A DNA stretch of 64,000 nt from Gordius sp. MW1 (lineage: Eukaryota; Nematomorpha; Gordioida; Gordea; Gordiidae). How positions within the stretch are numbered: the first letter of the stretch is position 1; every line of letters starts with the position of its first letter. A program made the translations under genes and the position numbers. The stretch lies in NCBI GenBank assembly GCA_964036665.1, contig OZ038528.1, positions 2,796,501 to 2,860,500 on the forward strand, written 5' to 3'. Under the pieces are notes generated by a model. It made no database searches and had not been told where the DNA came from. It saw only the letters and a list, made by a program, of their open reading frames with translations. Shown piece after piece: positions 13,728 to 36,138 of this stretch.

Positions 13728-15556
13728 TATAAGAAATAACATTGCAAAGTTGCGTTGTGTGCAATAATTGATTTAGTGAAATAAAAGAAATTTATTTCAC
13801 CAAGCCCTCTTATGGTCATTTAAAATGGATGTAAAAATAATGACAAGCTTTACTATAACTTTCCACTGTATAATAAAGTTATGGGTGGGGAAATTTACCA
13901 TTTTTGGATTTAAATTAAATAACCCTTAACAAAACATATAATAGATTGATAGTGTAATAGGTCGGATATCGAACTACATTAATCTAGGATAGGGGCCATA
14001 CACGATATGGATACGGCTTGTAGCCATCTTGAGAAACGAGGATTAATGCATGACTTAGTCCACGGCAATCACAGATTTCGGTGGACAAATTGCAGCGCTG
14101 GCAACATAGCAGCTTTTCTAAAGTAACATTTTGCTCTTTTTAAATGTAGCATAGTTAAAACATGCGCCTAAATAGATGCGATTGGGTTCACCAGACACTC
14201 TCCATATTTATTTTGATCATTAATTGTGTTTTAAGGTACAAAGTCTTTAAGGATTGATATGACCTTAGAATTGATCGGGCGTTTATAAAGTAGTGCTGCT
14301 CAATTATTCATAAATATTTACAGAATTTGCAATTATAAATTAAAATACCTATTAGCTCCTCAATGTCCTCATGTTTATCAACCAACAACATCGCTCACGG
14401 TTTTAGAGATATCGTAGAATTACCCGGGTTTGATCTGTCATGAACAATGCGTATCTAATAACGGTTATGTTATAACTAAGGTAAAACTTTTCAAATTTTA
14501 CCTTTATTGATTATTTTAAATTTAAACCAAGAATTGTCGTCATGTAAACTCAACAAAAACTTAAAAAAACTCATTTTAAAGTTACTTATTTAAATGTGCA
14601 AGTAGCTATTATGCAGCGAATATTAATATTGTAATGAGTTGTGTTATATTAAGTATGATTAAGTCAAAATAAAGTGTGCCTTGTACTATAATATAGATGA
14701 CACTGTCAATTAATTGATTAAAAATTATAACTTTTTGAGGGGTGTAATGTAGCTATATAGCTCAAAAGATAACAATAGGCAAGAACCTTTGTTTATAGCA
14801 AAGGGTCTAGATTGCTAGTCTCTCAAACAAAATATAAATATTCGCTCAACTAAATTTTAATTTAGTGGCGCTAGCTTTTTGAGGAACAATCTATACCTGA
14901 TTAATTGTGGGTATGCACATGATTTCTACGAGTGAATAGCACATTTAAAAACTTTGTTTTATTTTGTAATCAGGAATTAAATTGCAGCACTAGTGTTTCG
15001 ATCTCGTCTCGGTCTCGAAAACAAAATCTTGTCTCGTCTCGGAAGCATTATAAAAGTCTCGATCTCGTCTCGGTCTAGAAAAATCTCGGTCTCGTCTCGA
15101 CTTTAAAAAAAATTTATACGGAATAAAAATTTATCCTGTTTTATTAAAAATATTAAATAAGTATTAAGAAATTCAAATGGCAAATTTCTATATTTTTGAA
15201 AAAACTTTAATACACAAACTTTTTAAAGATTTAGCGGGACACGACATCTCATGACAATACAAAGATATGAATTAAGTCATAAAGATAACATTTTATATGG
15301 AAATAGTAGACTAAAAAAACTTTAAATAAATTTAAACTATAGAAAATTAAATTTTACTGTTTTAGCAAATCATACCATTTGTATCAAATTCACCGTGTTT
15401 GTCAACTACATAATGACTTAGAAAATAATAAGTTCACTTATAGTTAATTTGGTTGCATAATTGAGACCCAACCCTGGCTAAAACTTCAAAGTAGACCTTG
15501 ACATATTTAAGGCAAACGTTTAAGTCCATTGATATTACCATCATCAATTATAGCCT

Positions 15557-16102
15557 TATCGTGTACCCATACACGAAGAATGAAATTAGCGTATCCAGAG
15601 ATACGATGATGAAGATGTCTTCCCACACACCCCCCCCCCCCCCCTCATCTCATCTTATTCAAAAATTAAAGTTAAGAGTTCAACACGCGGTACAATCTTT
15701 TGATCTTACACGTTGTACACTCATAGCGTAGACCATTATTCTTTTACATTTAATTTCTAGTACGCGTATACCCCCCCCCCCGACGCGCTGATACGTATTT
15801 GTTATTTTTCTTACGCGTGAGTGAGTTTCGATATACGCATCTTATCGTATGCGGTTTTGACATTGCGATCTTTTAATTATTATATATATTTTCTTGGTTG
15901 TGATTATATTAATGCCATGTAATAAAGACAGTTGAGAAATATTTCTGCGTACGCGCGTGAGCCTGTTCGCGGCCCGGCCATCCCCCAATAATTTATCGTT
16001 TTACGGCCCAATTTTCCTTTAAATTCCCCCAATTAATTCCTAATAACTCTTCCCTTCTGGACCTTCTTATTTAAATCGTATTCCTTTCCCACGAATACGA
16101 TA
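15557..16102 (+). repeat. Left LTR
   Basis: Starts TATCGTGTACCCATACACG, ends CACGAATACGATA. Nearly identical to the right LTR; the visible differences are in poly-C length. Contains palindromes and an AATAAAG at about 15922. Confidence 0.9.
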
Positions 16103-16287
16103 TTTGGTGTCAGATATTCTACTCACGCCCGATGGAGGAAACCAGGAATTATTCTACAAAACGAAAAAGGAAATAATTTATACAGAAAAATTAATTTGGA
16201 ATTCAAATTGCCGCCCCCCCCCCCTTCTTCTGAATGGAATGGATAAAATTATTCGGATAAAATTATTCCAGGAACATCCCGTTTGCC

Positions 16288-16620
16288 ATGAAAAATCGTC
16301 ACAGTGCAGGGATATTGAATAAAATTATTCCAATCCCGTTTGCCATGAACAACCGTCACAGCGCAGGGATATCGGATAAGATTATTCTACTAAAACAATC
16401 GAACCAATCCATGATTCGGAAATATTGGGAGACGGAGGAAGAAAACAATTCCTTCGACCAATTGGCTACCAAATTTAAACCGCAACATAATTCAGTGGAA
16501 ATTCCAATATGTCTGAGAACATATGACGGAATTCTTCGAACGAATGAAAATCCCGAAACTGAAAATATCAATTATGCAAAATCTTCCCTCTCAAGGCCTA
16601 AATTCTTAGTGTGCCGCTAA
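16288..16620 (+). CDS. Small open frame inside the LTR element (110 codons)
   Basis: Reads MKNRHSAGILNKII, then a near repeat MNNRHSAGISDKII, then a Lys/Asn-rich tail ending KFLVCR. The doubled segment reflects a 60-bp direct repeat in the DNA (16281-16380). No gag or pol motif is seen. It could be a remnant of a polyprotein or chance. Confidence 0.3.
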   Translation: MKNRHSAGILNKIIPIPFAMNNRHSAGISDKIILLKQSNQSMIRKYWETEEENNSFDQLATKFKPQHNSVEIPICLRTYDGILRTNENPETENINYAKSSLSRPKFLVCR

Positions 16621-17040
16621 AATGTTATTGTAAGACAGAATTATACACTTGGTTTATTTACATATATTTATTATATGAAAATTATATTGTTAACCAATAT
16701 TTAAACCCCCCCCCCCCGCTGTTTCTTTGACTATTATTTGACAGTCTGCGCGTGGGCAAGAAAGGATAATTTTCAAGATAGCAGTTTACAATCTATATTA
16801 TTTATAAGTTTTGTCAAGGCTGTTGCTAGGTGAGTCACAGAGCTGGAAGAAAAATCCGTTAGTCATGACGTTGCCTTTTTATTACTGATTTTTACATATA
16901 TCCGTGTGAGCAAAGGCCAGAGTTGGTATTCGATGCCAGATGTTTGAAACTTATAATGATAACGCCGCCTTGATAGTTGCACTGAGCTCTTAGAACTCTA
17001 TCGAAAATACATTAAGTCTTCGACTTTTAAAAGGATAAGA

Positions 17041-17586
17041 TATCGTGTACCCATACACGAAGAATGAAATTAGCGTATCCAGAGATACGATGATGAAGAT
17101 GTCTTCCCACACACCCCCCCCCCCCCCTCATCTCATCTTATTCAAAAATTAAAGTTAAGAGTTCAACACGCGGTACAATCTTTTGATCTTACACGTTGTA
17201 CACTCATAGCGTAGACCATTATTCTTTTACATTTAATTTCTAGTACGCGTATACCCCCCCCCCCCGACGCGCTGATACGTATTTGTTATTTTTCTTACGC
17301 GTGAGTGAGTTTCGATATACGCATCTTATCGTATGCGGTTTTGACATTGCGATCTTTTAATTATTATATATATTTTCTTGGTTGTGATTATATTAATGCC
17401 ATGTAATAAAGACAGTTGAGAAATATTTCTGCGTACGCGCGTGAGCCTGTTCGCGGCCCGGCCATCCCCCAATAATTTATCGTTTTACGGCCCAATTTTC
17501 CTTTAAATTCCCCCAATTAATTCCTAATAACTCTTCCCTTCTGGACCTTCTTATTTAAATCGTATTCCTTTCCCACGAATACGATA
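17041..17586 (+). repeat. Right LTR
   Basis: Same ends and length as the left LTR. Follows the purine tract and is followed by the TSD AGCCT. Confidence 0.9.
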
Positions 17587-18045
17587 AGCCTATTGCATGT
17601 TTACTATAGCGTTATAAACCACAAGTGCGAGTGACTTTTAATGATAATATTATTATTTACAGAATTGATAACTAGATGCACATATTAAAACGTTGTAAAA
17701 ACAACAATAAAAGCAGCATAATTATAGGATTAAGAATATAAGGTTTTAAACCTTAAAATTAAAGTTCAGGTATTTAAATTTATGACAAAAATCATTATAA
17801 TCAAATTTATATCCAAATGATTACTTTCCAATTCTAACTGACTTTGCCATTAAATAGTTATGTATGGAATACAGTAGAGGTTCGTGTACATATTTTATAT
17901 TGCACAATTATGGAAATATAGTAAATTTGAATGCACCTGCCAACCCAGCTTATACTGTGAAAAGTAATGCACATGACAAATCTATATATTCACAAAATGT
18001 CTTATTAAAATTCAAAAGTTTGGGAGGTATAGTATCAGTTGAAGC

Positions 18046-18246
18046 TAGTGTTGCTAAAGCGGCTGGGTTATGTTTGGTCGACCTTTGGTGTTAGTCTACT
18101 AAACCTAAACAGATCAAAGGTTTTTTGGTTTAATTTTCTGAGTCTACCTTTAGGCTAAGTCGAAATTTGAAAAACGGACTTGAGCTAATCGTTAATCTTA
18201 GTTAAACCAACGGTTGACCACACAAAACCCAGCTATTTTTACAACA
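18046..18246. mobile_element. hAT-type MITE (AGTGTTG family), copy 2, with perfect 8-bp TSD
   Basis: Flanked by GTTGAAGC (18038-18045, 18247-18254). The paralogous hAT copy 2 has the empty site (ATTAGTTGAAGGATG near 34680), which proves the insertion. Confidence 0.9.
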
Positions 18247-18995
18247 GTTGAAGCATAGAAACTTCTAGAAAACTCATGATTTAGATTTAATCTCATACGG
18301 TGTCAATAATTACTCTATTGTAGTTTTGAAATCTTTAGCCAGGTGCCAAAAATCTCGAGCCACCTTAGATTAACTTGTTTAATTATTCAAACTGATTGAC
18401 CATAAATTTATAATTACCGCATTATGCAGGATGAGTAACTGCGAAATTCAAATATGCTTTAGTAATATTTATTATTCCATCACATTCTAAGCCTAAAATT
18501 TTGTAATATTTAATAATGCTATGGATACAAATATGTAATAGAGATATTATAAAATTATTCACACACCCTAAGTTTCAACCATACTTAGGTAAATGATTGC
18601 CAAATTTTAATTTATTTGCAAAAATATGTTATATTTACTACACTTAGGAATTTTTTCACTATCAAATATATTCGATACATATTGATTTACACTTAATACC
18701 TTAAATGTAAATCATGGAATTAAAATACACAATAATTTACTAAAATCTAACGGTCGCCGAAAAATCTCGTATCGTCTCGACATCAAAATTCTCGTCTCAA
18801 TCGCGACTCCATTTTTCAAATTCGCGTCTCCGTCTCGTCTGAGACCAGATTTTTCCGCATCACTAAGATTGTTGCAAACTTAAAATTTAAATTTGTCACA
18901 TTGTCATGGTCACAATTGTCGTTTATGAGGAAAATAATTGATCTTCATTTCGATAGCATTGTTTTGTTAAGATCAATCAATATAAAAAAATTTCA

Positions 18996-20510
18996 TCTAT
19001 GTATATAAAAATCTAAGTCCCTTTTTTTTGAACGCTAATAACTTTTAGAGTTCTTAACCGATTGCCACCAAATTTGGCGGCCAGATTATTGCCTTAGCAT
19101 TGTAGATGGTTTATAGATACTTTTTATCAACCTGCGACAGCGAGAACCCTGTTTTTTGGTAGTCTATACTGCCATCTAGCGGAATATTTATACTACGTTT
19201 TATCGTTATGGTGCTACTTATTGTCTTAAACTCTTTTCCACGATAGCTTTATCTTTTTTGTCTCAATTTTTTACTCAACTACGCCCGTTTTTTTCACAAT
19301 ATATAAAGCTGTAACAAATAAATATTCTCGATACCGTAAAACATCACCGTTTTCTTAAATAAATATAACGCGCGCTTTTAGTAACATTCCCACGTTTCCT
19401 GGTTTTTTGCTATTTTAATGAAGTTCGGTAATTAATTATAACTACCAAAAATTCACATATCTATATATATATAAATGTAACTCCGTTTTCTTCGGCCTAA
19501 CTCCTAAAGTTCTCTACCGATTGCCACCATATTTGGTCAGATTATTGCCCTAGCATCCTAGATTGTTTATATATACTTTTTATCGACCTGCGACAGCCTT
19601 AACCCTGTTTTTTGGTAGTCTCTACCGCCATCTAGCGGATTATTTATACTTGACTGGACCTTTCACGGGAGAAGATGTCTTCATACCACGGATCCCTTTA
19701 ATTCCAACAGATATACCCTTTGAATTTACAAGATTGCAATTTCCTTTTAAACTCGCATTTGCTATAACCACTAACAAAGCTCAAGGCCAGTTTCTTGCAA
19801 TTTGTGGAATCGATTTAAAACAGTTTGTTTCTCACATGGACAATTATATGTTGCATGTTCGCGCGCCGGCAATCCACTAAATCTCTATATCTACACAGAA
19901 AATAACATGACCAAAAATATTGTCTATCCCCAAGCATTATAGCAATTTGTTCCTTTCTAAGGCAGAAGTTAAGCTGCGAAGCATCTCTTACCCGAACCTA
20001 CAACCCTCTTTATAACGCCTCACTACTTTTCTGCATGAATAATTAAAGTTAGTATTATTTCTATTTATCCACTAATAACTTTTAGCAATTACCATTAAAG
20101 CCCATTGATTTTACTCGCGTATAATCACCTTTTAAATTCAATAATTTTATACATCTTTTAGCATTTATCCCCTGTTTATTACGCCAGAGTATTATAACCA
20201 AATTTGACGAGACATTCACAAGAAGCTATAATACTGTACGTGTATTACCTTATTCTTCATGAGACCTATCTTTGAATTACCCTTTATCCATCAACTTTCC
20301 CTTGCAGGTTTTATTTTACTATTTACAACATTTTTACATTATACTTTCAGCCAAAATCTTCATACAGCTCTTTATTACCCATACATTATTATAAGCTTTT
20401 TATATTTTATTTCATATATGACACCATTTTAGATAAATCTTATTAATAGGTTATAATACTTATTTAACCACTTAAGGACGCCAAAGCAACACGTGGCCGG
20501 GGGCAGCTAG
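18996..20510 (+). mobile_element. Helitron debris: two 5' ends and one 3' end
   Basis: 5' ends TCTATGTATATAAAAATCTA at 18996 and TCTATATATATATAAATG at 19460, each followed by the same CCGATTGCCACCAAATTTGG leader. A helicase C-terminal fragment follows the second. The 3' end is GGCCGGGGGCAGCTAG at 20510, before T, the CTRR-T pattern of Helitrons. The second leader is joined directly to helicase coding DNA, so a large internal deletion has occurred. Confidence 0.85.
19650..19878 (+). pseudogene. Helitron helicase C-terminal fragment
   Basis: GEDVFIPRIPLIPTDIPFEF, then LQFPFKLAFAITTNKAQGQF and ICGIDLKQ: the region just before PIF1 motif VI. It loses frame where CFSHGQLYVACSR should stand. Confidence 0.88.
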
Positions 20511-21099
20511 TTTAATTACAAAGTTAAATTGTTCCCGAACTTGAAATTCTTAATAAGCAACAAATGATTTGTTGTAAAGTCACATAAGATAACAATCTTA
20601 TGAATAAAGTTTAATAGTATCATTAATTTTGTTCACATTTACGACAATAAGTCTCTATAATAAATAAATGCATTTTATAAGGAGTATGATTAGGTGCGAC
20701 ATGAAGTTTTTCGACCATCGGGATAAGTGACTTCTTTGCTTTGTCCATTTGCAAACACCATTTTAGTTGTGCCGTCCGGGTAAATTTTTTTCTAAACACA
20801 AATAAGCTTAAATTTAAATAACTATACATTTTACTAAAAATAACTGCTTTATCTATGCATTATAAAACACACTAAGGGTCCCACTTTCACACATGATACT
20901 ATAGCCCTGAAACGTTGCTTTCTAACTGCCCGAACCCGAAATTTTGAAAATCTAAATTTCTAACCAAATCTGACATCAAGTATTTAGCATTATATATATA
21001 TGACATTAAATAACATTGCTCAACAAATAATGGACTTATAAAATCAAACTGTTTGCAGATTCTGGCAGTTTTTTACTGCGAAAACAAAATATTTTTTAT

Positions 21100-21970
21100 T
21101 TTTTTTTCTTTATGTGTCAAGTTTTTGAAACATTTGCTGTCAAAGTTGCTACAAGCGATTTTAGCGTTTTCAAACGTCAATAACTTGAAAATGAAAATTT
21201 TAGTAAATTTTTTTACACTAATAAAGGTTTATTTCAGAATAATTGTGTAAAAATATATTAGATTAATGAGCAGGCTTAGAGCCACGGATTGAAATTGTAT
21301 TGGATTTTACAACTTCCATAGTCATTTTCTGCTTGTTGCAAAAAATTCTTTAATATCGGATGTAATTGACTTGTTTTATTTTAATTTATTAAGGTAAAAC
21401 TACATATTTTGTGAAGATGAATGAAATAAATAAAAAAATTAAGTAAAATAAATATATGGAAAACATTTTAATAGTTCTATTGAATTATAGTTACAAATAG
21501 TAATGCCGATATTCTGTCTTTTTAAAAAAGATTCGCGATATCACGGGATAGCAATGAAATTTGTTTCCTTTTTTTTGAAATACTTTATAAGGCTTCGGGG
21601 CCTGAGTTTGTAATAGTGACCGTAATGGGACAGAAAATCATAGTATTGATAAGCTCCAAGTTTTTTGCATTTTTAGTGCCCCAGCTGAAGAGAGAAGATC
21701 TTTATTTTATCAGAGTAGTATGAAAACAGGTGAATAGAATGCATTAAGGAATGCGGATATAAATAAAAGGGAGAGGAACCCAATAAAAATTTTTTTACCC
21801 TAGCTTTATTAATTTTTCATATATATTCAAAATCAACTCATCTATATCTTTTTACATTAACAATTTGCCCCGGACTTAAGGTCGCCATACCTTCACTTTA
21901 ACAATAGGAATTGAGTGCGTGTTGTTGTTTATCTACTACTACAGATCTGCACGGTGCCGCTCAGGCCCAT
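21100..21970. repeat. Second copy of the ACGTCAAG...CTTAAGGTCG repeat family
   Basis: Shares AGTTGCTACAAGCGATTTTAGC-type and TTTCAAACGTCAATAACTTG segments with 7850-7950, the 21415-21560 piece with 8705-8972, and GACTTAAGGTCGCC with 8105 and 49808. It runs into a hAT-like end AGATCTGCACGG at 21944. Confidence 0.55.
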
Positions 21971-22810
21971 GGGTCGGGCTTCTGCTTTAAAATAAAACAG
22001 CCGTAATAAAACTTACGGGCTCGTGCTGGGCTTGGATATACATGAGGCTTCGGCAAAAGCATGTTACAAAATGAATTAGATTTTTATTTGTGTTATATAA
22101 AGTATAAACAAAAATTTGTTTTTATAATGTTCCAACTTATAATTAAAATTGATGTTTAAATAACAAGGATTTAATGAATTCCTCTCCCATTTATTTATAA
22201 ATCCGATTTATCAAATTACAATTTTACCGATAAATTTGCAAGTACTTGACGTTTGAAAACGCCAATATCGTTGTTTTTAGCAATGACCGCAAATAAAATC
22301 TGACGTAAAGGGAAAATTAAAAATACCGAAATCTGCTATTGCCGGTCAATTTTTCTTGTCGAACCGCGTAGTTGATTTGAAACAAGGATTAGTATAATAA
22401 TCAAAAAGTAAAAATCCAATTAACGTTAAAATTAATAATTATTTAATTGCAATGAAACAGAAAATTGTAATCTAACGATCAAATATAAATACTTCTTATG
22501 TTTGTTCTTATAGCTTCAATAGCTAATAAGAAATTTGTATATTTAATACACTTAAAGTGTGGAAAAAATTGATTATCGATAGGGATAAGCTATATTATGA
22601 ACGCCAAACGATAGGGTTTTTTGTAAAATATTTTCTAAAAGGTTTGCGATCAGGATTCGCTTTACTCTAACCCATCACTCGAACCTCAATTATTTATTTA
22701 TCTTTTTGTCAGAGCCCGGCCCGTAACCCTTTTAGGGCAAGGGCTATCAAGAAACGCACATATTCAATGCATTGTATGTACAATTAAATATAATATATTG
22801 ATAAAATCAA

Positions 22811-23050
22811 GATTTTAAAAACGATTCCGGTTGGAATTTTGTAAAGAGGGCCCGATTTACGACGGATGGTAACCGTGAATCAAATAAGAATAACTCTAGT
22901 TCACATGCCATCTAGGACACAATTTAAATTAGAGACTAAATGGCATAGTGAGCGAAAACGTTATTTGTCTTTTATTCTGAAAGAGATAGGGATAATTTAG
23001 TCAAACTAGTCCCTAATTACAATTTAATATACATTAGATAACAAATCACA
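22811..23050. repeat. Repeat shared with the piggyBac right arm
   Basis: CGATTCCGGTTGG, GATTTACGACGG and AATAAGAATAACTCTA match 55480-55690. The second half can fold back on the first (GAGACTA...TAGTCCCT). No coding capacity. The DNA from 23.05 to 24.6 kb is AT-rich with nothing recognised. Confidence 0.55.
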
Positions 23051-24796
23051 GGTTAAAAAATAAAATTGACAGAATGACACACTGTGACGACTGCGACTTA
23101 CAAAAATTCCACTCTGTACTTTGCCGCTCGAAGAAAGTTATTATAAAATGCATATAGAGGTCACCAAATACTCAGTGTTAACAACTTTTTAACACATGAT
23201 TAAAATAAACTATATTAAATGGCCACGAAGTCTAAAAACCATATGTAGGATGATTCCAATTAAGCTATAACGATATAATAACTTAGTTAGAGAGTTAATT
23301 CTTTTTAGTCTAGCGTAAGTGCAAATTATATAATTTGTGTAGTCAAGAAATCACTTTAAGCGCGTTAATTTTCGGAAATTAGAGCTAACTGTTGGCAAAG
23401 AGTAAAAAAAACTCATCTATATAGTCTAAAGCCTTCTAGTTTCAGTTTTAACATTTATTTTCCTTCTTTAAAGGTCTAGGTAGGTATTTTGGGCAATACT
23501 TTTTAATTTTGAATAAATTTAAAACTGAAATAAAACATTTTTGAGTGATAGGCCTTTAGATCAATTGTTATAGATTTTTTTAAGACTACTGGTCCTGGTC
23601 TAATAAAATAATCAGACCTCGATCTCGGGCGTCGATTCGGGAACTAACCATTTATAGAATATGATATAAATAAACCCAACTCGATATGTAATAAATATTT
23701 TCGTACGGCGTACATACATAATATAGCTTTTAAAATGTAGTCCCTGCTCTCATGTTCATATTAATTTTTTGATTAACATCAAACTTTATTCAAGTATTTA
23801 TAGATAAACAACAACTATTAGGACACCAAAAATAAAATAAGTAAATACTTTAATACTCTTTAATTTTGAGCAGTTAAATAAAATCAATTTTCATAAAGTT
23901 AGATTTTTAAGTCAAAATTATAAATTGGATTCTTTATTTGGCCGGGCTTGGATCGGGCTAAAAATGAAGAATACATTCAGGCTCGGGTTGGGCTCAGACA
24001 AATAATAAATAAAAACGTCGGTTTCTGGTTTAAAAATCCATTTACAGGGTTTTAGACACCTGAGATTCATCACAACTTTAAATAAGCCTAGGTTTTTCGC
24101 CATTTTGAAATGTGCACCGATAAGGGAAGGACACATAGATTATAGTAATTTTGGTTAATTAAAGTGATTCTAGACCGTAATAAAAAGATATTGATCTAGT
24201 TAAACATTAAAAAAATCATTTTATAATATACGAACATATACAAAATTAAAAAAATACTGTAGTGATATGTTAAAACAATTTAGTCAATGCCCATTCTTAA
24301 TGAAGATGAAGAAACGGATAATGTGTTTTAATCTTTTTTTTTATAAATGTTTTTCGTTCTTGTATTTTTTATTAATTCCACTTTATATTTAACACTTCTT
24401 TTTTAATAAAGCTTGTCAATTCAAAAAAAAAATTTAGTGCCATCTGTATTTTATTAAATTATCATTTACTAACATTCTTTTCTATTTTTAACTAATCAGG
24501 AAGGTAAATTCACCTTTTATGTTATAATAATGATTTACACTGCAGAAAGGCATGGAAGGTAGTTAAAATTAAAATGATGGGCTTAATGATATTTTTTATG
24601 AAACATATGGCATGAGCAGTTTATATAGTCCATAGACTAAATAAATAGACTGCTCCTTGAGCATGCATAATACATATGAAAAATTTGATGCCGAAAATAC
24701 CGCCATCTTGAACTAAGTAAAAAGGTATTTTATATGCATGTTATATAAGCATATTTATTGTTTATAGGCACAAGAATATAGAAAGCTACAGTAGAA

Positions 24797-24935
24797 GGAG
24801 AACAAATTATTGTGCTCTTTAGAGTAAATTTTTGCTCAGTAGAATATTCATTTGCTCAGTAGAATAATTAAATGTTCAGTAAAATATTCAAATGCTCATT
24901 AAAAATGTTGCTCAGTAAATTTTTGCTCAATTCAA
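24797..24935. mobile_element. Solo terminal region of the TGCTCAGTA MULE
   Basis: Starts GAGAACAAATTATTGTGCTC and continues with several TTGCTCAGTAGAATA units. It matches the complement of the right end of the element at 57657-58904. The partner end was not found, so this is a broken element. It lies just downstream of the last SAS-4-like exon found. Confidence 0.75.
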
Positions 24936-25014
24936 TAACTAAAACTTATTTTTGAAATAAAATAAGTAAAGAAATTATCTATATAACACTTCGTGCAGAC
25001 CTATACAGACCTAC

Positions 25015-25221
25015 CTTCCATTCACGAGTGTGTATTTCGCGTCGGCCATCTTGAAATGTATATATTTTCCCGAGTCCATCAATCGTTTTACTCACTAAAG
25101 TTCCGTCCTTTAATTGCAGAGGGTAATTTCTATGAGAACTAGGTTGATCTGAATTCATTTCCAATGATTCTGACTCCAACCATAGGTTCTTATTTGTAGG
25201 TGGCTTAACTATCACAGGTTT
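25015..25221 (-). CDS. SAS-4-like G-box exon
   Basis: Acceptor GCCAG before 25221, donor TGGAAG|GTAGGT at 25014, 69 codons. The residues after an acidic Ser-rich lead form beta-strand repeats typical of the G-box, with DG at two of the expected turns and REIHTREWK at the end. In CPAP more repeats (PDGTxK type) follow; no such exon was seen between 24.9 and 22 kb, where a MULE end and AT-rich DNA lie. Confidence 0.75.
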
Positions 25222-26564
25222 CTGGCATGTTAATTATTGCAATTAGTAAAATGTCAATTACAGCTTAAAATATTATCAAACAAAAGACCTTTAATATAAA
25301 GGTTATTGTTTGAATATTGGATAGGTTTTGGGGCTAATTATCAATTTATGCACAAGTAATGGTTTAAATAAGTAATTGAGGAAAATATTAAACAGTCTAT
25401 TTAAACATAATTTTTGTATACAAAATCACATCAATAAAATATTTAGAACGCTACAAAATTTTGAGAAAATTATGAAAATTTATTAAAGTAAATAACGTGT
25501 AAAAATTTGTTCTCTATAAGTAAATTATATTTTTAGATTTATAGGATAAAGTATTTTCATTTAACTACAAATATTTTTTTGACTAAAGGAATATGATTTT
25601 TAAAAGGGTTGCATTATTTTAAAGGTAAATTAATGTATTTAAAGTATAATACTAAATTTAGTAAAAAAATAAAGATGTCACCAAGGTCTAATACAACATT
25701 CAATAGGTTGTTTTATGTTAGAGATTAAAAAAATTATAATAAATATAAAAAATATTCTGCCATAAAAATTAAGACGTACATCATTTTGCAAGCATTGATT
25801 TTGATCCTTTATAATTAAATATGAAGAGGCTTTTATCCTATTGTTAATTAATGTTCTGTTCTTAGCTTTCTCTCTTTCTAAATCAAGCTCTAATAGTTTA
25901 ATCTAACCAAAATATAAATTAACATAATTCTATTTAGGTACAATGATAAATAATGGAAAGAATTTTTTTAACCTTGTTTTCCAAATCTTGACTTTTCTTT
26001 TGATTGTTATTTTGATCTTTTGAGGTTCTCATCATGTATTTAACATTGTTTCCTTGTAATTTGGCTAATCTATTATGCTGCTCCACTTCTTTTATGAGTT
26101 TGACTGAATGTGTTTTCCTAAAAACTTCAAATTCCTGCTTATCTTTTTTTAGTTGCATCATTTCCTAGAAAATAAGAGTTAACATCTTAAAAAGCAAAAT
26201 TATACTTTTTCATATTTTTTGCGCAAAGCAAAGCTTTTTTCCTTTTCTTTAACCAATATATCTGCTTGTAATTTCATTTCCAAATATTTTTTCATCAATT
26301 TACTAGCTAATTCTTTAATATGACAGGACTGCGGGCTATTGATAGCATTCAAGTCAGTGGTACTTACACTATGCAATTTAATGTTAGTTTTATTATAATT
26401 TGATGAAGGGCTCTGATTTATAATGGAAAGATTTTTTGGGGTTGAAGATATATATTTGTCGATTGAATTGTTGAATGCATTATTTGAGTTGGTAATGCTA
26501 TAAATATTTGTTTCTTGTAGAAAGGTACCCTCATCTTTCTCACGGACCATTTCACCTTGCTTTT
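25015..26564 (-). CDS. SAS-4 / CPAP (CENPJ)-like centriole protein, partial (4 exons)
   Basis: Exons in transcript order: 26564-26206, 26164-25973, 25902-25780, 25221-25015, all phase-compatible, coding 293 residues. The family builds centrioles by controlling growth of the centriolar microtubules. The first exon has a low-complexity Ser/Asn region then a Lys/Glu-rich helix (KEKEKSFALRKKYEK). The second and third are coiled coil (EVFRKTHSVKLIKEVEQHNR resembles the conserved CPAP segment before its central coil). The fourth carries LKDGTLVSK and DGRREIHTREWK, the GxxEIHT signature of the TCP10/CPAP C-terminal G-box. The rest of the G-box and the N-terminal half were not found. It could be an intact gene with distant exons or a captured fragment, because it lies inside the 15-35 kb hAT-bounded block. 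Confidence 0.72.
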
Positions 26565-26721
26565 CTAACAAATTTAAACACGTTTAATAAACATTTTCAA
26601 ATTTAAATGTATAAACTAATTGCTTTTTACGACCTTTGGTAAAAAAGGTAGTCCTCTCATTTATACAGCAATGTTCCGGATTTATTAGAAATGTGGCCAT
26701 ATGATACACGTTATTTTAAAC

Positions 26722-26974
26722 GGTATCGTTTCAAAATGTCACAGTCCAAAATGTAACAAAGCCACATCGTGAGATTCACGGATCTCACGATCGTGAGATT
26801 CGCAATTACTCATTGCGCAAGCGCATAATTTCCATTGGGTAGTGTTTTAGGTCAGCGTTTTAGGTTAGGGGTTGGGTTAGGATTAGATGTACATCAAATT
26901 CCCTCCCCATTTGAGATTTAATTTTTCGTGATATTCGTGTGACATTTTGGACTGTGACATTTTGAACCCAAGAC
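26722..26974. mobile_element. MULE-type MITE with TTAGGG-like core, copy 2, 9-bp TSD
   Basis: 253 bp, TSD ATTTTAAAC (26713-26721, 26975-26983). Ends share TTCAAAATGTCACAGTCCAA inverted. Inside are the palindrome ATCTCACGATCGTGAGAT and GTCAGCGTTTTAGGTTAGGG. Confidence 0.85.
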
Positions 26975-26983
26975 ATTTTAAAC

Positions 26984-29205
26984 TTCGCGGTTGTTGTTGA
27001 GGCGCAGCTATATATTCTCTATTCCAAGTGGTATATAATGAAGCGTAAAAACGCATTTCTTATACGTCAGAGCGGAACATGGCATTTGTGCAGACTTAAT
27101 TCAGCTGATAAATACAATTGGCCTTCGCTTCCGGTGTATGAAGTTGGAAAAAGAAGTTGTGCTGTGTAAACAACAAGATTAATAAAGGAACGATAAAATT
27201 ATTAATTATGCTCAGACTTTCTTGAAGACTTGTCAAAGTAATTTTTAAAATTGTTGTTTTTTTAGGCTCACCTCAAAAATATGCAAATGTCTTCTTTTGT
27301 TTATACCCACAAAATGTGATGTGTAGCTATTACTCTCAAAGGAGGTTTTATAAGCTAGTGTAATTGTTATTCCTTTCCCAATTATATTAAAATAAATTGC
27401 TAGTTGTCAACTCTATTATTACATATCAATTTACATATAATCATAACTTAACTTTATAAACCATAATTTATGTTTATTAAAAATCCAAAACATTTTATAT
27501 ACTAAAGATTTAAAGGAGGTCTTAATCTTTGGCTTCATTTTGTTAAAGTTATCATAAATTTTCTTATGTCAACATTAATAAGAAACATGGACTTTACAAT
27601 TTTTTTAATAATCCTAGCTACACCCATTTGCTTTTGTTATTCTTTTATGCTGTAATATCCAACCCTCTATTAACTATAGTTGATTATTTTTATCTTAAAG
27701 TCGATACTGTGTTTAAAACAATATTTATTTTTGTAAAATTCCCTTGCTTGTTAGCCTACAAATTCTTGACCAGACCTCATCTAAATTTTAATTTTGTTAT
27801 ATAAATAAGTAAATAAAAAGATTTGTACCAAACATCTTGGTTTTATCAATCACAAACCTTAAAAAATTATTTATTTCAAATTTGAACAATGCTTTCTAAA
27901 ATCTATTTGTCATGTATAACTAGTATTAAAAATTTTTGATCCAAATTCCCATATCCCATTTCTTTTAGCTTTATTTACATCTATACAATTTTTCCCTATA
28001 TAAATCTGTGATAATGACAAGTAATTGTTGAACTGTGTCCAAAGAAGCCAAGTTAATGCTTTCGACATGCCCAACGTCATTATACTTGTAACATTACTCC
28101 TCTTTCCCACAACTTGTTGAGCTTTGTTAAATTAAAATATCATTGAGTTTTTTTTGCATCTAACCACTCACAAGCCTTATTCTTTACCTCCTTACTAAAA
28201 ATATACTTACCCATTACGGACTCCCTGATGGAAAATTTTTAAGTTACTGCAAACTGCTCTCCCTCCCATCAATCATGATTTAAATTTTACTTATCTCCCC
28301 AAACATATATATATAAATATTGTGGTAGATCTCAGAATAATAACGACTCGTTATCGCCTCCCCCTTTTGATATTTGTCTATGAAGTAAATTGTAATTCAA
28401 AATTTGAGCTTCGGGCTTGACATCGAGCTGGTCTATCAAGTCCCACCAGAAATATTTACTTTATTCTTTTGTTCTCGCTCGGGCTCCGCATGGCTCTACC
28501 TGTTCCGCATATATCTCTAAACTTTTGCTCACGCTCTTAGTCTAACGCTCAATCCTTTGCTTCTATGATCGATAGTGCTATTGTGTTAGTTTTTCCCCAT
28601 CTCATCCCCCACCTACCATAACGGGTTTATTGATCATAATAACTATTTGCAAAAAGGACATCTTGTATATAATCTTGATATTTGCTTATACTTTATTACT
28701 TTCCTCTTTCTCGCTCTCTCTCCTTGTCTGCCCTTTTTATGCTAACCGGGGCGGACATTGACACCTAAATCAACAAGCCTCGGCAACAATTGAAAAAAAA
28801 TGTCCTAGCAAACTGAATTTCACAAAATTTTTATGAAACTCTTTGTCGTGATGAAGAGAATGGACTTACCTTCCCATACCATCATCTATCCACGAGTATG
28901 AGCCCGAATCCGACACCCAAACTAATGAACCATGAAGAGCCTTCCAGTCATCTTACCAGAGTTTCAAGGGAGAATCGTATCATTATTTATATGCTTTTAG
29001 TAGTTGCATGCATGTATATGCGTTTGCTTTTCCTTTATTGCTCCCTGCTACTAACATAATAATAAATTACGCTTCCACTTACTAACACACTAACCTACTA
29101 ACAAATGAACACGTAACCTCTGGCTATCGTGGCCCGAGATGCACCGCTTAGGTGTCAGATGACTCAATCTTAGCTTTAGCTAAGCTCTTGAATGTCATCG
29201 GGGCA
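26984..29205. other. No gene recognised
   Basis: AT-rich with a pyrimidine-rich part near 28.5-28.75 kb. The frame at 27910-28110 has no known motif. The missing 5' exons of the SAS-4-like gene could be here but were not identified. Confidence 0.45.
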
Positions 29206-29211
29206 AATACA

Positions 29212-29682
29212 TATATACATACATACATACATACATACATACATACATACATACATACATACATACATACATACATACATACATACATACATACATACAT
29301 ACATACATACATACATACATACATACATACATACATACATACATACATACATACATACATACATACATACATACATACATACATACATACATACATACAT
29401 ACATACATACATACATACATACATACATACATACATACATACATACATACATACATACATACATACATACATACATACATACATACATACATACATACAT
29501 ACCATACATACATACATACATACATACATACATACATACATACATACATACATACATACATACATACATACATACATACATACATACATACATACATACA
29601 TACATACATACATACATACATACATACATACATACATACATACATACATACATACATACATACATACATACATACATACATA
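29212..29682. repeat. (ACAT)n microsatellite, about 470 bp
   Basis: About 117 tetramers with a single interruption (an extra C at about 29502). Six long open frames across it are artefacts of the repeat. Confidence 0.98.
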
Positions 29683-29962
29683 CGTCAGTTTATGTATAGT
29701 TTACAAAAATAACACGCTTTCCACTTATTTTTAAATCCGCCATTGAATTTTAATTCTACTCCATATAACATCAATTATTAGTTTTACATTAAATAGTATT
29801 AAAGATATGATGCATGAGGGCTTCCCGAATTTTATGCTCATATTGCAATGTCGGACTTCATATCCAATGTTGGTCATAGATGCATTATAATTAACTACAT
29901 TCTAATGTCTTTGTTATTTAATAAAATTTTAAAATTTGCATATTTTACGTCTCCCAGTGTAA

Positions 29963-30232
29963 CCTTTAGGGCACGCCTAATATACGATTCAACCTCAAAG
30001 CGCCATATTTTTGTTTGTTTAAATATGCGCTATATATACATGTCGTGGAATCAACAATTTTAGTTTAGTTACCATCTGAATATGCATTAATAAGCGTAAT
30101 TAAAGGATGAATATTTGTTTTATGAGCAAAAACACTAAAACAAAAATGAGGTGATTAAGACGCGGCTATGTTTTAACATGCATTCGCTTTTTTAATCTAG
30201 ATTCAAAATCGCGCAATAAGACGCACCCTTAG
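29963..30232. mobile_element. MITE, inverted relative of 1391-1680
   Basis: Left end TTTAGGGCACGCCTAATATA, right end complement of CTAAGGGTGCGTCTTATTGC. The ends pair imperfectly. TSD not clear. DNA from 30.23 to 31.74 kb holds nothing recognised. Confidence 0.65.
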
Positions 30233-31745
30233 ATGACACCCCTTTATTTTCGAAAGTAAACATTTTTTCCAAATTTTTTAAATTGTTTGGCTATATAGAG
30301 CATGTTGGGATGTCCCAATAATATTTCATAGAATTAATTCGGCCAATCCGATAGTGGTACCTGTCGGGTTAACGGAAAAACCTCAACCATAAACATAGAA
30401 GGGTCAATTCAAACTTGCTGAACGATCTTGTAATTTTGATATGGTATTATTATATTGTATAACTCCCCGCATTCAAAATAATAATAGGTTGATGCCACCT
30501 TTTGGATTTTTAATAAGCTCAGCTGTGAAAACCATTTATTAACAATTCTACACTCAAAATTTTTAGAATTATATTATAATTCAAAAATTTTAATTATTAG
30601 GTTTAGGACACTTGAAAGCTTATTTTATCATTAATTTATGGACAGCAAACTTTTGTTGGGATTAATCAAATGTTTTTCAATTATATTTGATATGAATGAC
30701 AACTTGTAAAATATATGCTGCTGTGGTTGAGATTTATTTATAACTTTTTTATTTAAATGACGTTAAAATTTTTCTATTTTAAGTAGGAATCCATTTTGAT
30801 TTGCATTAGATTTTACCTGAAAGCTTTTATGCTCAATTTTTTAATCAATCATTACACCTTTTAATCAAAGAATATTAATAAATTAATTTTTTTGAAGATA
30901 ATACTTCACATATTTGGCTAAAGGAACTAAAATTTTAGTTTCTTATTATGCTATTGTAATAGTGCCAAGAGATTAAAACGATTTGACATTATATAATAAT
31001 AGGTCCAAGCTAATTTAATTTACATATAAATTTTGAGTTAATATATACAAAAAGATTTTAGTTTATGTAAACATACGCGCATGTAGAAATGCTGATCATT
31101 GATTAAAGCAAATTAATTACAAATTTTTGATCAATTTATCACCAGAAACTTTTAGGTCAATTATTATTGACAGAATATCTGAAAATTGCTGTGGTGGTTA
31201 AAGTTTGACTAGCAGTGGTCTGTCATAGTTAACGACATCCGATAGGTTCATTAGGCGAGACATTATGCAGCTACTCGTTCCGTTATTTAAGTGAAGGTGG
31301 CTATCTATCTTGATCTAGTATAAAACAAGAAAATTTGTTTAGGTTATCCCAATACAGGTTAATAATAATAATATGTTAAAAGGACGTTTATGTAGAAAAG
31401 CTATTATGCTCACCATTTGATAAACAATATTAAACTCAAATATAAACCTCTACTTAATAGTTAAATTGTTTGCTATCACTCATTTTATTAAAAATTACCC
31501 AAGACGGGTCATGGTTTAAATACAATTTTTGTTGTAATTTTCTAACAAGAGTGCGTTTAACTCTTTTTTTAACTTACATATTTCAGGGTGTGCCAATAAG
31601 CGATTCAGTTTATCGGGACATTCATGATGCGACGCGAATTGCGAATTAATTCGCCCGAAAATAATGTATATATTTAATAGGAGGAGGCCTTCGTAGTGAG
31701 ACCGCAGGCGACTACATTCGCCCGCGACAAAAAATGAACAAAAAT

Positions 31746-31963
31746 ACAGCGTTTTTCTTTACTTTTGCACATCTTAACTCCTTCTTGCACATTAGTAGGA
31801 GAGAAAAAGGGTGATCAATCATAGCTTTTAAAAGAGAACGCTCTTTCACTCTCCGAGTAGAGAAAAAGAGCGTTCTTTTTCAAACGCCATGATTGATCGC
31901 ATTTTTCTCTTTCACTATGTGCGGTAGGAGAGTCAAGAGGTGCAAAAGTAAGAAAATTGCTGT
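31746..31963. repeat. Hairpin / small foldback, 218 bp
   Basis: Left arm ACAGCGTTTTTCTTTACTTT and GATCAATCATAGCTTTTAAA with GAACGCTCTTTC pairs with the right arm (GAAAAAGAGCGTTC, ATGATTGATC, GGTGCAAAAGTAAGAAAA). The arms are about 100 bp and the loop is near 31852. Confidence 0.8.
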
Positions 31964-32549
31964 AAATCATTTAGTATTTTCCGCGCGATAGTTTTAAATT
32001 GAACTTGGTGTGAAGCGAGCCCTATTATATTTTTCATAATAAGCAATTCACATTTTTCGGACTCAGAAACAGTATTGCGTCTTTATTACGGCAATAATTA
32101 GTAGTATGAAATTGCTTATAATTGTATAAAATTATAATTTTACTCATAAAGCCTCACTCCTGATTGTTTAAGGGCTCATTTGAGCCAATTTAAGGATGAG
32201 ATCTAAGCCTAATAAAGACATGCATGTCTAATCGTATGCATATTTGCAAATAAATACTTTATAAAAAACAGCTTACACATGCATAAATTGGCAATAAATT
32301 TCTTCCTAATTTTGAATAAGCACATCCACTATAAAATGATTGTTAAAATTTACACTATCTAACCATTTCTTAAAATATTTTATAACTAAGATATGACTTT
32401 AATTGCGATTCTTCCAAAAATATATAAATTTAAAATCAAGCTTAGCTAGAGTTGAGATTAAATGCTTTGCCTTTCATAATCATAAATAATGTTAGTAACA
32501 TTTATCAGTGGCGTAGCTAGCCTTTTTGCCTTGGGGGCTGGGTTAAAAC

Positions 32550-32659
32550 CATGGGCGTAGGTAGGTGGGGGGACAAAAAATTTCCTACTAAAACCCTTGA
32601 AATTAAAAATATTTATGCTTTGCTCCCCCCCCCCATTCCAAAACCTGGATACGACCATG
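32550..32659. mobile_element. CATGGGCGTAGCC MITE, short copy
   Basis: Ends CATGGGCGTAGGTAGG and CCTGGATACGACCATG. 110 bp. No clear TSD. Confidence 0.7.
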
Positions 32660-32932
32660 GGTGAAATATGCAATTGAAAATCTTTTCCCTAATAAACGTT
32701 GGACAAACTTAAAATTCCGCTACTACTTTGTGTATTTTTTCTAATAACATCACGCTAGTATGTCTCAAACCTTCATGTTTATAGGGCATAATACAAATAA
32801 AATTTATTCATAAATAAAACAAAGTAATGTAGTTGAAACAATATAAAAAATTTCACATGGTATAATAAGTTTTGTATAAATAAAATTGTAAGGGCACAAA
32901 GTGGAACGGGGATATTGACAAGTAGTGTTTCG

Positions 32933-35221
32933 ATCTCGTCTCGTCTCGGTCTCGAAAGCAAAATCTCGTCTCGTCTCGGGAGAAATCATAAAAATCTCGA
33001 TCTCGTCTCGTCTCGGTCTAGAAAAATCTCGGTCTCGTCTGATCTCGACTTTTTTGAAATTTTTTTTATTATTTTATTAAAATTATAAAATAAGTTTTAA
33101 AACATTTAAACCTTTATTTTTGAAAAACCTTAATTCACATCAAGCTTTAGCGCGACACGACATCTCACTGACAATATAAGGATATTAACTAATTTCTAAA
33201 GATAACATTTTCTTTGGAAAGTGCAAATTAAAAAACTATAAAAAAATTTGAAATAAAATACGAAAACACAGCTTTTTGTTAAAATATAATATAGTATAGT
33301 CATGCATTAAATTTAAAATTTAATGGTGGTGTTTATTAACTCTTTTTAGATATGAGCTTAGACCGGTACTCTTGTGAGTGTTTTATAGCTGAAACTTATA
33401 TGTAATTTATATACTAACTAATTGCTAGTTTAAAGATCTGACATTTGTATCAAATTCACTGCATCTGTCAAATTCAAATAGACTTACAAAATTTTAAGTT
33501 CACTTATATTTGACTTAGGTTTTATTTGGGCATATTGAGACCCCTTATTAACCCTGGCTAAAGGCCCAAAATTGACCTAAACATATTTAAGACAAACGTT
33601 TAAGTCCATTGATATTACCTTCATCAATTATATCCCATAGAGTTTATTGCATATTTATTATAGCGTTATCATAATTAGCTGCACATATTAAAAAGTTGTA
33701 AAAACAATAATGAAAGCAGCATTAATATAGGATTAATAACATAAGGTTTTAAACTTTAAATCAAAGTGCACATCTTTTATTATATGATAAAAATCATTAT
33801 AATCAACTTTGTAATTGTTGTAGTCCTACACGAAGCAGAACAGTTGCTTATATCTATTCCCCGTTGCTCTTACGCATTTTAACTCGGATCTATATATAGA
33901 CGCGTAGATATACATCACGTGTAGATGTAGATATCCATACGCGCGTTTTCATTGGTCAATTATTATCTTTTGTTCGTATAGATGTAAAATATTCATCCGC
34001 AGCAAAAACAGCTGCGTTTAGAAGGAAAGTACGGGGCATTGATTCTGTGAACTCACACACACACACCAAAACCCCCTCATCATATCTCTCTCTTATTTAT
34101 TAATGTATACGCGTAGTCCCTCTCCCCCCTATTGATCGCTATGCGATATATTATAGTTAACAAGATCTATTTGTCGACGCGCAATAATATTGAGGTAGAT
34201 ATCAATCCGCGTATGTGGATTGGATATACTTTTTCTTTGTTCACATATATATTATCATATGATACATATCATTTTCTCGCGAATTCTTGGGCATTTTTCT
34301 TAAATAAATAAATGAAAATACGTAAATGGATCTTTAAGGTAAGGCTTAAACTAACACATAATCATAATAGTAATATTGATTAAACAGTAATTCATTTAAG
34401 TGCAATCTTTATCTCTAATAATTTTCTTGTTGTTAATAATGGAGTTGTTAATAGTAATCTAGATAATTCCTTTCAATTTTAACTAAATTTGCCATTCCAT
34501 AGTTATTTATCTAGTACAATATAGGTTCGTGTATTTATTTTATATTGCACAATTATAGAAATTAGAGTAAATTTGAATGTACCTGCCAACCCAGCTTATA
34601 ACGTGAAAAATAATGCTTATGACAAAACTATGTATTCACATGATGTCTTATTAAGGTTCAAAAATTTGGGAGGTACACCATTAGTTGAAGGATGAAAACT
34701 TCTCGAAAACTCAAGATTTAATCTTTAGGGTGTCATTAAATACTCAATTGTACTTTTGAAAAATAGTTAGCCAGGAACAAATGACGCTAGTGTGCTCAAA
34801 AAATCTCGAGCCACATTAGCTTAACTTGTATAATTATTCAAACTAATTGATCACCAATTTGTAATTACCACATCATGCAGGATGAGAAACTGCCATATTC
34901 AATCAAAACTCATTCAAAGTCTAAAGTGATGAAAATATTATTAAATTATTCACATACCCTGAGGGCCATCCATACTTATGTAAATATCATATTAACTACA
35001 CTTAGGTGTTACTTTATAATCAAATATATTCCTATCATATTGATTTATATTTAATACCTTAAATATAAATCATGCAAATAAAAATACGCCATAATTTACT
35101 AAAATCTTATGATCAATAAAAAGCCGAGATTTCGCCGAAAAAATTCATCTCGTCTCGTCTCGACCTCAAAAAACCGAGACGAGACGATACCGAGAATTTT
35201 CTCGGTTTTTCCGCATCACTA
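32933..35221 (+). mobile_element. hAT element with TCTCG-rich ends, copy 2
   Basis: 2289 bp, same ends and orientation as copy 1 (TAGTGTTTCGATCTCGTCTC / TTTTTCCGCATCACTA). Collinear blocks: AAGTCCATTGATATTACC, CCTGCCAACCCAGCTTATA, TTTGTAATTACCACATCATG. It lacks the nested LTR element and MITE of copy 1 but carries its own insertion at about 33822-34455. No transposase frame. Confidence 0.82.
33822..34455. mobile_element. Insertion in hAT copy 2, LTR-like, uncertain
   Basis: About 630 bp absent from copy 1 at the matching point. Starts TGTTGTAGTCCTACACG and has ACGCGTAG and CACGTG palindromes, CA repeats and TATA-like runs in the style of the solo LTR at 2501. GTAAT stands on both proposed sides (near 33820 and 34452), a possible 5-bp TSD. 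Confidence 0.4.
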
Positions 35222-35269
35222 TGCAGCACTTTAAGTTATGTTGTATGTCTGAAGGTGAACCTATAATAA

Positions 35270-36138
35270 CACAGCTCTACAAATATTAATTTTGTGATTG
35301 TATCCCGCAATCCGACCAATAATTCTGATAGAGAATTTTGCGCTGAAAAATAATATGTTTTTAGTTTTTTCTACGATTACCAGTTTTTTAGATATACGAG
35401 GTTGAAAGTGCCAAAAATGCCCTTTTTAAGCCTTTTTGAGGCTATATGGCCACGGCAATTTTAATAATTAGCGAAAAATAGTAATATATTCCTAGGTCCA
35501 TTCTTTTATTTTTTATATCACCCTTCTACTCAAATTTATACGCGTTTGCGTAAACCTCTTCTCCTTATCAAAATTCGTCCCACTATGTCTGGAAAAAAGA
35601 GTTCAGTAGAGTTCATACTACACACGCGCTGTTTACTAACACATATATCTCTCCCTTTACCTACTCTCCTCTCTTTCCCCTCCACTCCCGCCCCCTTCAT
35701 GTGTGCTTGGATAGATATGGGGGCGGGAGTGGAAGAGATGGAGAAAGGGGAGAGATGTGTTAGTAAACAGCACGTATGTAATATGAACTCTAATGAACTC
35801 CTTTTTCCAGACATAGTGGGACGAATTTCGATAAGGAGAAGGGGTTTACGCAAACGCGTATAAATTTGAGTATAAGGGTGATATAAAAAAATAAAAGAAT
35901 GGACCTATGGATGAAACTTTAATCTACATGAATATATTACTATTTTTCGCTAAATATTAAAATTGCCGTGGCAATATAGCCTCAAAAAGGCATAAAAGGG
36001 CATTTTTGGCACTTTCAACCTCGTATATCTAAAAAACTGGTAATCGTAGAAAAAACTAAAAACATAATATTTTTCAGCGCAAAATTTTCTATCAGAATTA
36101 TTGGTTGGATTGCGGGATCTTTTTTTTGTAGACCTGTG
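35270..36138. mobile_element. Long foldback element, arms about 420 bp
   Basis: An inverted repeat centred near 35705 with a loop of about 25 bp. Outer ends CACAGCTCTACAAA and the complement of TTTGTAGACCTGTG. Both strands carry near-identical 105-codon frames (35536-35853 minus, 35546-35863 plus), simply because the arms mirror each other. A half copy is at 40247-40470. Confidence 0.92.

Follow-up and report, generated by a model that had tools for sequence, protein, structure and literature searches.

At one locus of Gordius sp. MW1, two same-direction copies of a hAT-like element border non-transposon DNA, and a target site duplication (TSD) is present at the outer ends of the pair alone, which is the layout of a macrotransposon. 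A natural hAT macrotransposon of the Ac/Ds type, whose left end was contributed by copy 1 (E1) and whose right end by copy 2 (E2), is the probable explanation of this locus. The first-pass annotation had proposed that these two ends moved together with 14 kb of cargo; this proposal is supported, and its main rivals fit less well. If it is true, abundant non-autonomous hAT copies can shift, by cut-and-paste, stretches of DNA the size of a gene and perhaps an essential gene in its entirety, and single genes gain a route of relocation that involves neither retroposition nor segmental duplication. A simple genome-wide test is offered by TSD-less hAT pairs that share their outer flanks.

Structure of the Locus

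In the window, the whole 64-kb stretch of DNA that was analysed, E1 occupies positions 14991..18865 and E2 positions 32923..35221, both on the plus strand and both with complete ends. E1 is a non-autonomous hAT-like element with the termini TAGTGTTTCG...CCGCATCACTA. By direct reading, identical termini in the same direction were identified for E2, which belongs to the family of E1 and is about 82% identical to it across the shared core. For the two same-direction hAT copies described in the first-pass annotation, the direction, the extent of copy 1 and the end of copy 2 were correct, whereas the start of copy 2 had to be moved from 32933 to 32923. Nested within E1 is an LTR-like element (15557..17586) with two 546-bp terminal repeats, which are 99.6% identical, and with AGCCT on either side. 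This element is younger than E1.

The flanks follow each other in the order TGCAGCAC, copy 1, AGATTGTT, and then TTGACAAG, copy 2, TGCAGCAC. The outermost 8-mers of the block, directly left of copy 1 (14983..14990, plus strand) and directly right of copy 2 (35222..35229, plus strand), were read directly and are both TGCAGCAC. On the inner side, the flanks are AGATTGTT (18866-18873) and TTGACAAG (32915-32922), which differ from each other. The earlier observation that neither E1 nor E2 has a TSD of its own, while the outer flanks of the pair are identical, was thereby borne out by direct reading of all four flanks.

The cargo between the two copies comprises 14,057 bp (18866..32922). A dispersed repeat is located at 18995..19700, with 84-94% identity in long matches (40 scored of 810 first-look candidates). 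At its right side, the cargo ends with the left 417 bp of another hAT-like repeat, R (32506..32922, plus strand), with the end CAGTGGCGTAGC preceded by the 8-mer ACATTTAT. E2 interrupts R at TTGACAAG, 417 bp into the repeat, and the left flank of E2 is the interior of R. In all seven of the other R copies inspected (40 scored; 711 first-look candidates), R runs on from TTGACAAG directly into A[AG]ATCTTTGACATTT. The right part of R was not found in the window, as searched with seven R copies, or in 10 kb on either side of it, as searched with one R copy. Since the right part of R is missing from this range, the present right junction of E2 is not the original one. A donor pattern, consisting of the right part of R without the left part, gave 0 matches in a run without a positive control.

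The hAT-Like Family

In the genome, 832 strict left ends and 611 right ends of the E1/E2 family were matched. The short terminal inverted repeats (TIRs) of hAT elements start with YARNG. The left end TAGTGTTTCG and the reverse complement of the right end, TAGTGATGCG, are alike at 8/10 positions and are of this YARNG type. Among the ends listed, an 8-bp TSD with 0-2 mismatches was identified for 37 of the 43 copies on contig C1 for which both ends were found; it was exact in 33 and carried 1-2 mismatches in 4, while 3 copies had a shifted TSD of about 6 bp, as judged by eye, and 3 had none. In an overlapping sample of 20 copies, the TSD was exact in 14, had one mismatch in 2 and was absent from 2. 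TSD-less copies are thus uncommon in this family. For right ends, 80 of the 100 listed (of 611) were used, all on C1 below 26.9 Mb; 4 C1 and 16 C2 entries were excluded, because the left ends listed (100 of 832) extended to 26.9 Mb.

For Hermes, excerpts of PMC2803484 give the target preference nTnnnnAn. Among 100 listed left flanks of the Gordius family, T at position 2 was present in 47, A at position 7 in 45 and both in 21, which is a mild preference; TGCAGCAC has the A at position 7 and lacks the T at position 2. The ends and the 8-bp TSD fit an assignment of the family to hAT, and the mild T2/A7 preference may do so too. The hAT domain PF05699 is abundant in the genome, with 150 matches scored, all above the cut-off. 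For an autonomous partner, no PF05699 match was seen by eye within 4 kb of strict family ends when the listed matches were compared to the listed ends on C1. A second macrotransposon was sought on C1 among the ends listed, and 0 of 23 same-direction strict-end pairs 7-150 kb apart had exactly matching outer flanks; such macrotranspositions are not common on C1.

Probability of the Flank Match

On either strand of the 64-kb window, TGCAGCAC occurs twice, both times at the outer flanks. In shuffled windows 0.66 occurrences were expected, and at least two were reached in 13 of 100 shuffles, so that it is the position of TGCAGCAC and not its count that is improbable. With base frequencies taken from 100 listed of the 832 left flanks, the probability that two random flanks agree at 8/8 positions is 7.3e-5 (1 in 13,600), and the probability that a random flank equals TGCAGCAC is 1.1e-5 (1 in 94,500). 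Among the ends listed, 0 of 7839 unlinked pairs of a left and a right flank matched at 8/8 positions and 9 matched at 7/8, in a census whose end patterns barred a C as the first base of left flanks and as the last base of right flanks, and in which TGCAGCAC-like right flanks were not countable.

The Cargo and the SAS-4/CPAP-Like Gene

The cargo looks like it holds at least part of what seems to be the genome's sole copy of the centriole gene SAS-4/CPAP. The putative last exon, which includes the stop codon, is located on the minus strand at 20690..20791. It contains the only match to Tcp10_C (PF07202) in the genome, at 20708-20785, with 33 bits and an E value of 1.4e-5, which is below the Pfam cut-off of 36. 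A further SAS-4/CPAP-like exon is predicted at 25015..25221 (minus strand, splice sites by eye). The ORF around it (24982-25233) had no Pfam match; in the PDB, CPAP-named chains were retrieved with E values of 0.004-0.006 and unrelated chains from 0.013. Further exons, probably from an upstream part of this gene, lie at 25681..26564 on the minus strand (A, 26206-26564; B, 25973-26164; C, from 25902; splice sites by eye), for which no Pfam match above the cut-off was obtained. The part of a SAS-4-like gene that the first-pass annotation had placed in the cargo can thus be narrowed to C-terminal exons through the stop codon.

A probe covering 24900-26650 has a single full-length place in the genome; its 37 other matches are short repeat matches and all fall into the first 75 bases. 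The single-copy probe and the single Tcp10_C match imply that the cargo was moved or is a relict, and was not duplicated. For the 5' exons of SAS-4, no CENPJ match in Pfam was identified in 30 minus-strand ORFs, 20 of them located within the cargo on the upstream side of exon A and 10 to the right of the block, or in four further ORFs upstream of exon A, and text-motif scans for the missing exons returned none. It is conceivable, at somewhat less than even chances, that cut-and-paste macrotransposition involving two non-autonomous hAT copies took a whole working single-copy SAS-4/CPAP gene away from its ancestral location, and that the gene became fixed at a new site, with a ChaC-like gene and a follistatin-like gene as its neighbours.

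Model for the Origin of the Block and Alternatives

In the proposed mechanism, two non-autonomous copies of the same family would have shared a donor locus and an orientation, separated by about 14 kb, with E2 having landed earlier inside a resident R. A transposase of the hAT type, supplied in trans, would have brought E1's left end together with E2's right end, and the 20,231 bp between the paired ends would have been excised and inserted at TGCAGCAC, with the new 8-bp TSD outermost. AGATTGTT and TTGACAAG would each be one half of the older TSD of its copy, and at least the C-terminal exons of the single-copy SAS-4/CPAP-like gene would have been taken along. The donor, presumed to have been lost later, may have kept a scar of the form AGATTGTTN{0,12}TTGACAAG (AGATTGTT, at most 12 bases, TTGACAAG) or of the further form CCACTGACATTTAT. 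When an empty site was sought in the animal's own genome, the outer left flank proved to be single-copy and the outer right flank to be unique as far as about 35257, the start of a palindromic repeat.

The same four flanks are predicted by homologous recombination, in which a circle of cargo and one copy, made by a crossover, entered a resident copy flanked on both sides by TGCAGCAC, and with 832 strict left ends there are hundreds of family copies for such an exchange. However, E1 and E2 would then be expected to be reciprocal chimeras. For Galileo, excerpts of PMC2775673 describe exchanged TSDs together with chimeric copies as marks of ectopic recombination. When the two are compared to a consensus built from 20 other copies, E1 is nearer to it than E2 in 15/15 bins (0.91 vs 0.84) and in both halves (+33, +31), so that neither copy looks like a crossover chimera, although a crossover in the terminal 60 bp or so would escape. 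As a check of coherence, 61 other copy pairs differing at 30 or more sites were identified, and among the 25 listed the halves shared the sign in 25/25. In addition, the reciprocal product expected at the donor, in which TTGACAAG follows a family right end, was not found: CACTATTGACAAG has 13 exact matches genome-wide, 0 of them with a family end, a search that a mutated form would escape. Recombination is therefore considered improbable. Composite insertions can also arise through alternative transposition with re-replication, as described in the available parts of Zhang et al. 2014 (PMC4270019): facing donor ends insert elsewhere, the re-replicated flanks fuse inside, and the donor stays. 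By our own stepwise reasoning, this route, too, is expected to leave a TSD at the outer ends and inner flanks that do not match, as found at the locus. The retained donor would make the cargo two-copy, however, whereas the probed gene-bearing part is single-copy, and this origin is judged improbable to the same degree, although it would be masked if the donor had been lost afterwards.

A coincidence, in which two unrelated copies lost their TSDs via nearby deletion or rearrangement and have outer 8-mers alike by chance, could draw on the 3/43 TSD-less C1 copies (among the ends listed), for one of which 10 kb of sequence in each direction yielded no strict family end. It requires, however, that two neighbouring copies both lack a TSD, for which the chance is about 0.5% under independence, in addition to a flank match of 1e-5 to 7e-5, which makes it more doubtful still. 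Least likely of all is an assembly error that joined two loci at the hAT copies, since E1 and E2 are, at their level of identity, a poor bait for collapse, and the contig spans 26.6 Mb.

Comparison to Known Systems

Macrotransposition by hAT ends is already established in maize genetics. The 2008 study of Huang and Dooner on maize macrotransposition names direct-orientation copies in its title, and a direct orientation is shared by the copies in Gordius. In the excerpts consulted, maize Ac/Ds macrotransposons (Huang and Dooner 2008; Wang et al. 2022, as cited in PMC3260210, PMC9910405, PMC4270019 and PMC10175614) resemble the macrotransposon proposed here in that hAT ends of two neighbouring copies act as one transposon with cargo. 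8-bp TSDs are described at the endpoints of maize Ac/Ds rearrangements in parts of PMC9910405, and up to 100 kb were reportedly mobilized by a Ds/Ac macrotransposon, according to a passage in PMC3260210. Unlike the maize system, the Gordius locus is natural and lies in an animal. Its two hAT copies are both non-autonomous and belong to a single family, a single-copy host gene is at least partly enclosed in its cargo, and no excision footprint was seen. In the portions available of the open-licence literature, no example of a natural hAT macrotransposon in animals was found.

The reversed-ends composite insertions, as far as they are described in excerpts of PMC4270019 and PMC9910405, likewise consist of two hAT copies that border foreign cargo with an outer TSD, but originate by re-replication and contain an internal fusion, whereas the probed cargo in Gordius is single-copy. 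TSDs that mismatch across each copy are also reported for the Galileo inversion of Drosophila buzzatii in the sections available of PMC2775673. There, the copies are inverted, chimeric and located at inversion breakpoints, while those in Gordius are in direct orientation, give no indication of being chimeric and have matching outer flanks. For an Anopheles P-element MITE, the accessible text of PMC1562414 proposes en bloc transposition from two copies in an animal; that case concerns the P superfamily, has no gene cargo and was put forward as a hypothesis for the origin of the MITE.

Structure of the Block and Its Flanks

In the genome of Gordius sp. MW1 (211.8 Mb, 12 contigs), the window (C2:2796501-2860500) contains two copies of one non-autonomous hAT-like family, E1 (14991-18865) and E2 (32923-35221), both read directly. 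Their termini are alike, starting with TAGTGTTTCG and ending with CCGCATCACTA. The first-pass annotation had correctly described two hAT copies in the same direction, but its start for E2 at 32933 has to be moved 10 bases earlier. It had also described copies without TSDs of their own and with identical outermost 8 bp, and this is borne out by the flank order: TGCAGCAC, E1, AGATTGTT, followed by TTGACAAG, E2, TGCAGCAC. In the window, TGCAGCAC occurs only at these two outer flanks. Since at least two copies of TGCAGCAC were obtained in 13 of 100 shuffles of the window, it is the position of the 8-mer, not its count, that matters. E1 contains a nested LTR-like element (15557-17586; terminal repeats of 546 bp, 99.6% identical, 5-bp flanks AGCCT), and a near-identical piece of its terminal repeat is located at 2503-3017. 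A long palindromic foldback repeat, multi-copy in the genome, adjoins the right flank (35258-36118).

Genome-wide, 832 left and 611 right ends match the exact end patterns of the family, 100 of each being listed. On contig C1, 43 copies have both ends at most 7 kb apart; 33 carry an exact 8-bp TSD, four a TSD with 1-2 mismatches and three, as judged by eye, a shifted duplication of ~6 bp, while three have none. A second sample, overlapping the first, held 20 complete copies (out of 37 loci): 14 had an exact TSD, two a TSD with one mismatch, two a shifted 6-bp duplication and two none. TSDs are thus the rule, and two neighbouring copies without them are unusual. The outer flank match is rarer still: agreement in 8/8 positions was found in 0 of 7839 pairings of left and right flanks from different copies, and its chance probability is 7.3e-5 for any 8-mer and 1.1e-5 for TGCAGCAC. 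These TSD and flank rates refer to exact-pattern ends from a single contig and draw on 80 of the 100 right ends listed.

The Repeat Interrupted by E2

Another repeat, R, begins at 32506, and its first 417 bp (32506-32922) reach up to E2; of 711 first-look candidates for R, 40 were scored. R starts with CAGTGGCGTAGC, preceded by ACATTTAT, and a PF05699 hAT domain lies ~544 bp past the matched left part at three places on contig C4, so R itself is hAT-like. Beyond TTGACAAG, all seven other R copies examined read A[AG]ATCTTTGACATTT, and several are similar for at least 1 further kb past the E2 insertion point. Since R runs on in these seven copies and is cut here at TTGACAAG, E2 landed inside R. 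The right part of R was not found in the window or in 10 kb on each side. The original right junction of E2, TTGACAAG plus the rest of R, is lost, and the intact right end of E2 abuts TGCAGCAC. The interrupted R is an independent sign that E2 has moved. hAT transposase domains are very abundant in the genome (PF05699; 3413 first-look candidates, 150 scored), some of them in open reading frames as long as 573 aa.

The Cargo

The DNA between E1 and E2 comprises 14,057 bp and includes C-terminal exons of a SAS-4/CPAP-like gene on the minus strand, in line with the earlier description of ~14 kb containing part of such a gene. The sole PF07202 match of the genome (20708-20785; E 1.4e-5, 33 bits, under the curated 36) falls within the final exon, which has a splice acceptor and carries the stop codon. 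The exon before it (~25.0-25.2 kb) matched no Pfam family and weakly matched PDB chains named CPAP (E 0.004-0.006, with unrelated chains from 0.013). Splice sites were assigned by eye. The probable upstream exon at 26206-26564 (-) opens with a splice acceptor, so that 5' exons are expected; none was found by Pfam among minus-strand ORFs of the cargo upstream of it and right of the block. A probe of 24900-26650 matches the genome over its full length at a single location, and the outer 100-odd bases of the left cargo edge and 32100-32471 near the right edge have no second place among the scored candidates. A long ACAT-type microsatellite lies within the cargo (29106-29690).

Proposed Mechanism and Alternatives

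The block has probably moved by hAT macrotransposition, using the left end of E1 and the right end of E2. A transposase acting in trans would have synapsed these two ends, and the 20,231 bp between them would have been excised by cut-and-paste, with presumed loss of the donor, and inserted at TGCAGCAC.

The main alternative is a crossover-based insertion, which would leave E1 and E2 as reciprocal chimeras, like the copies at the Galileo inversion (PMC2775673). However, E1 and E2 show no sign of chimerism: against the consensus of 20 other copies (859 shared columns), E1 reached 0.91 and E2 0.84, E1 was nearer in 15 of 15 bins, and its lead over E2 was +33 across the first half and +31 across the second. 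Allowing a single switch raised the score only slightly, from 64 to 66 at best; a change-over within the last ~60 bp would escape detection. A reciprocal donor product was searched for by exact match and not found, and this origin is considered very unlikely. A composite formed by re-replication is hardly probable either: such a composite (PMC4270019) would keep its donor, whereas the cargo probe has its single full-length place.

As in maize, where two hAT copies acting as a single transposon are established (PMC3260210, PMC9910405), macrotransposition would make the Gordius pair one transposon. Joint transposition of two copies has been proposed for an Anopheles P-element MITE (PMC1562414). 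No natural hAT macrotransposition in animals was found in the literature searched, which included few subscription journals. The kind of event is already known; the cargo is unusual.

Neighbouring Genes and Tandem Duplications

The left neighbour is a gene that we take to be ChaC-like, with its first exon near 5.0 kb on the minus strand. The right neighbour, with Kazal and Ig domains (Pfam), is presumably follistatin-like, and the end of its last exons appears to lie near 40.9 kb. The observed parts of both genes lie outside the block. A piggyBac-like transposase fragment is present at 53738-54232 (-) (DDE_Tnp_1_7, E 1.5e-5).

At G000:C1:9328826-9365824, two left ends of the family, with flanks GTCGTCAG and TCCTCGTT, reappear, flanks included, after 28,518-28,519 bp, which marks a tandem duplication of ~28.5 kb. 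Another tandem duplication is suggested at G000:C2:4545050-4579535, because right ends sharing the flank GATGTGAT lie 22.8 kb apart and repeat matches in the same stretch are spaced 22.7 kb.
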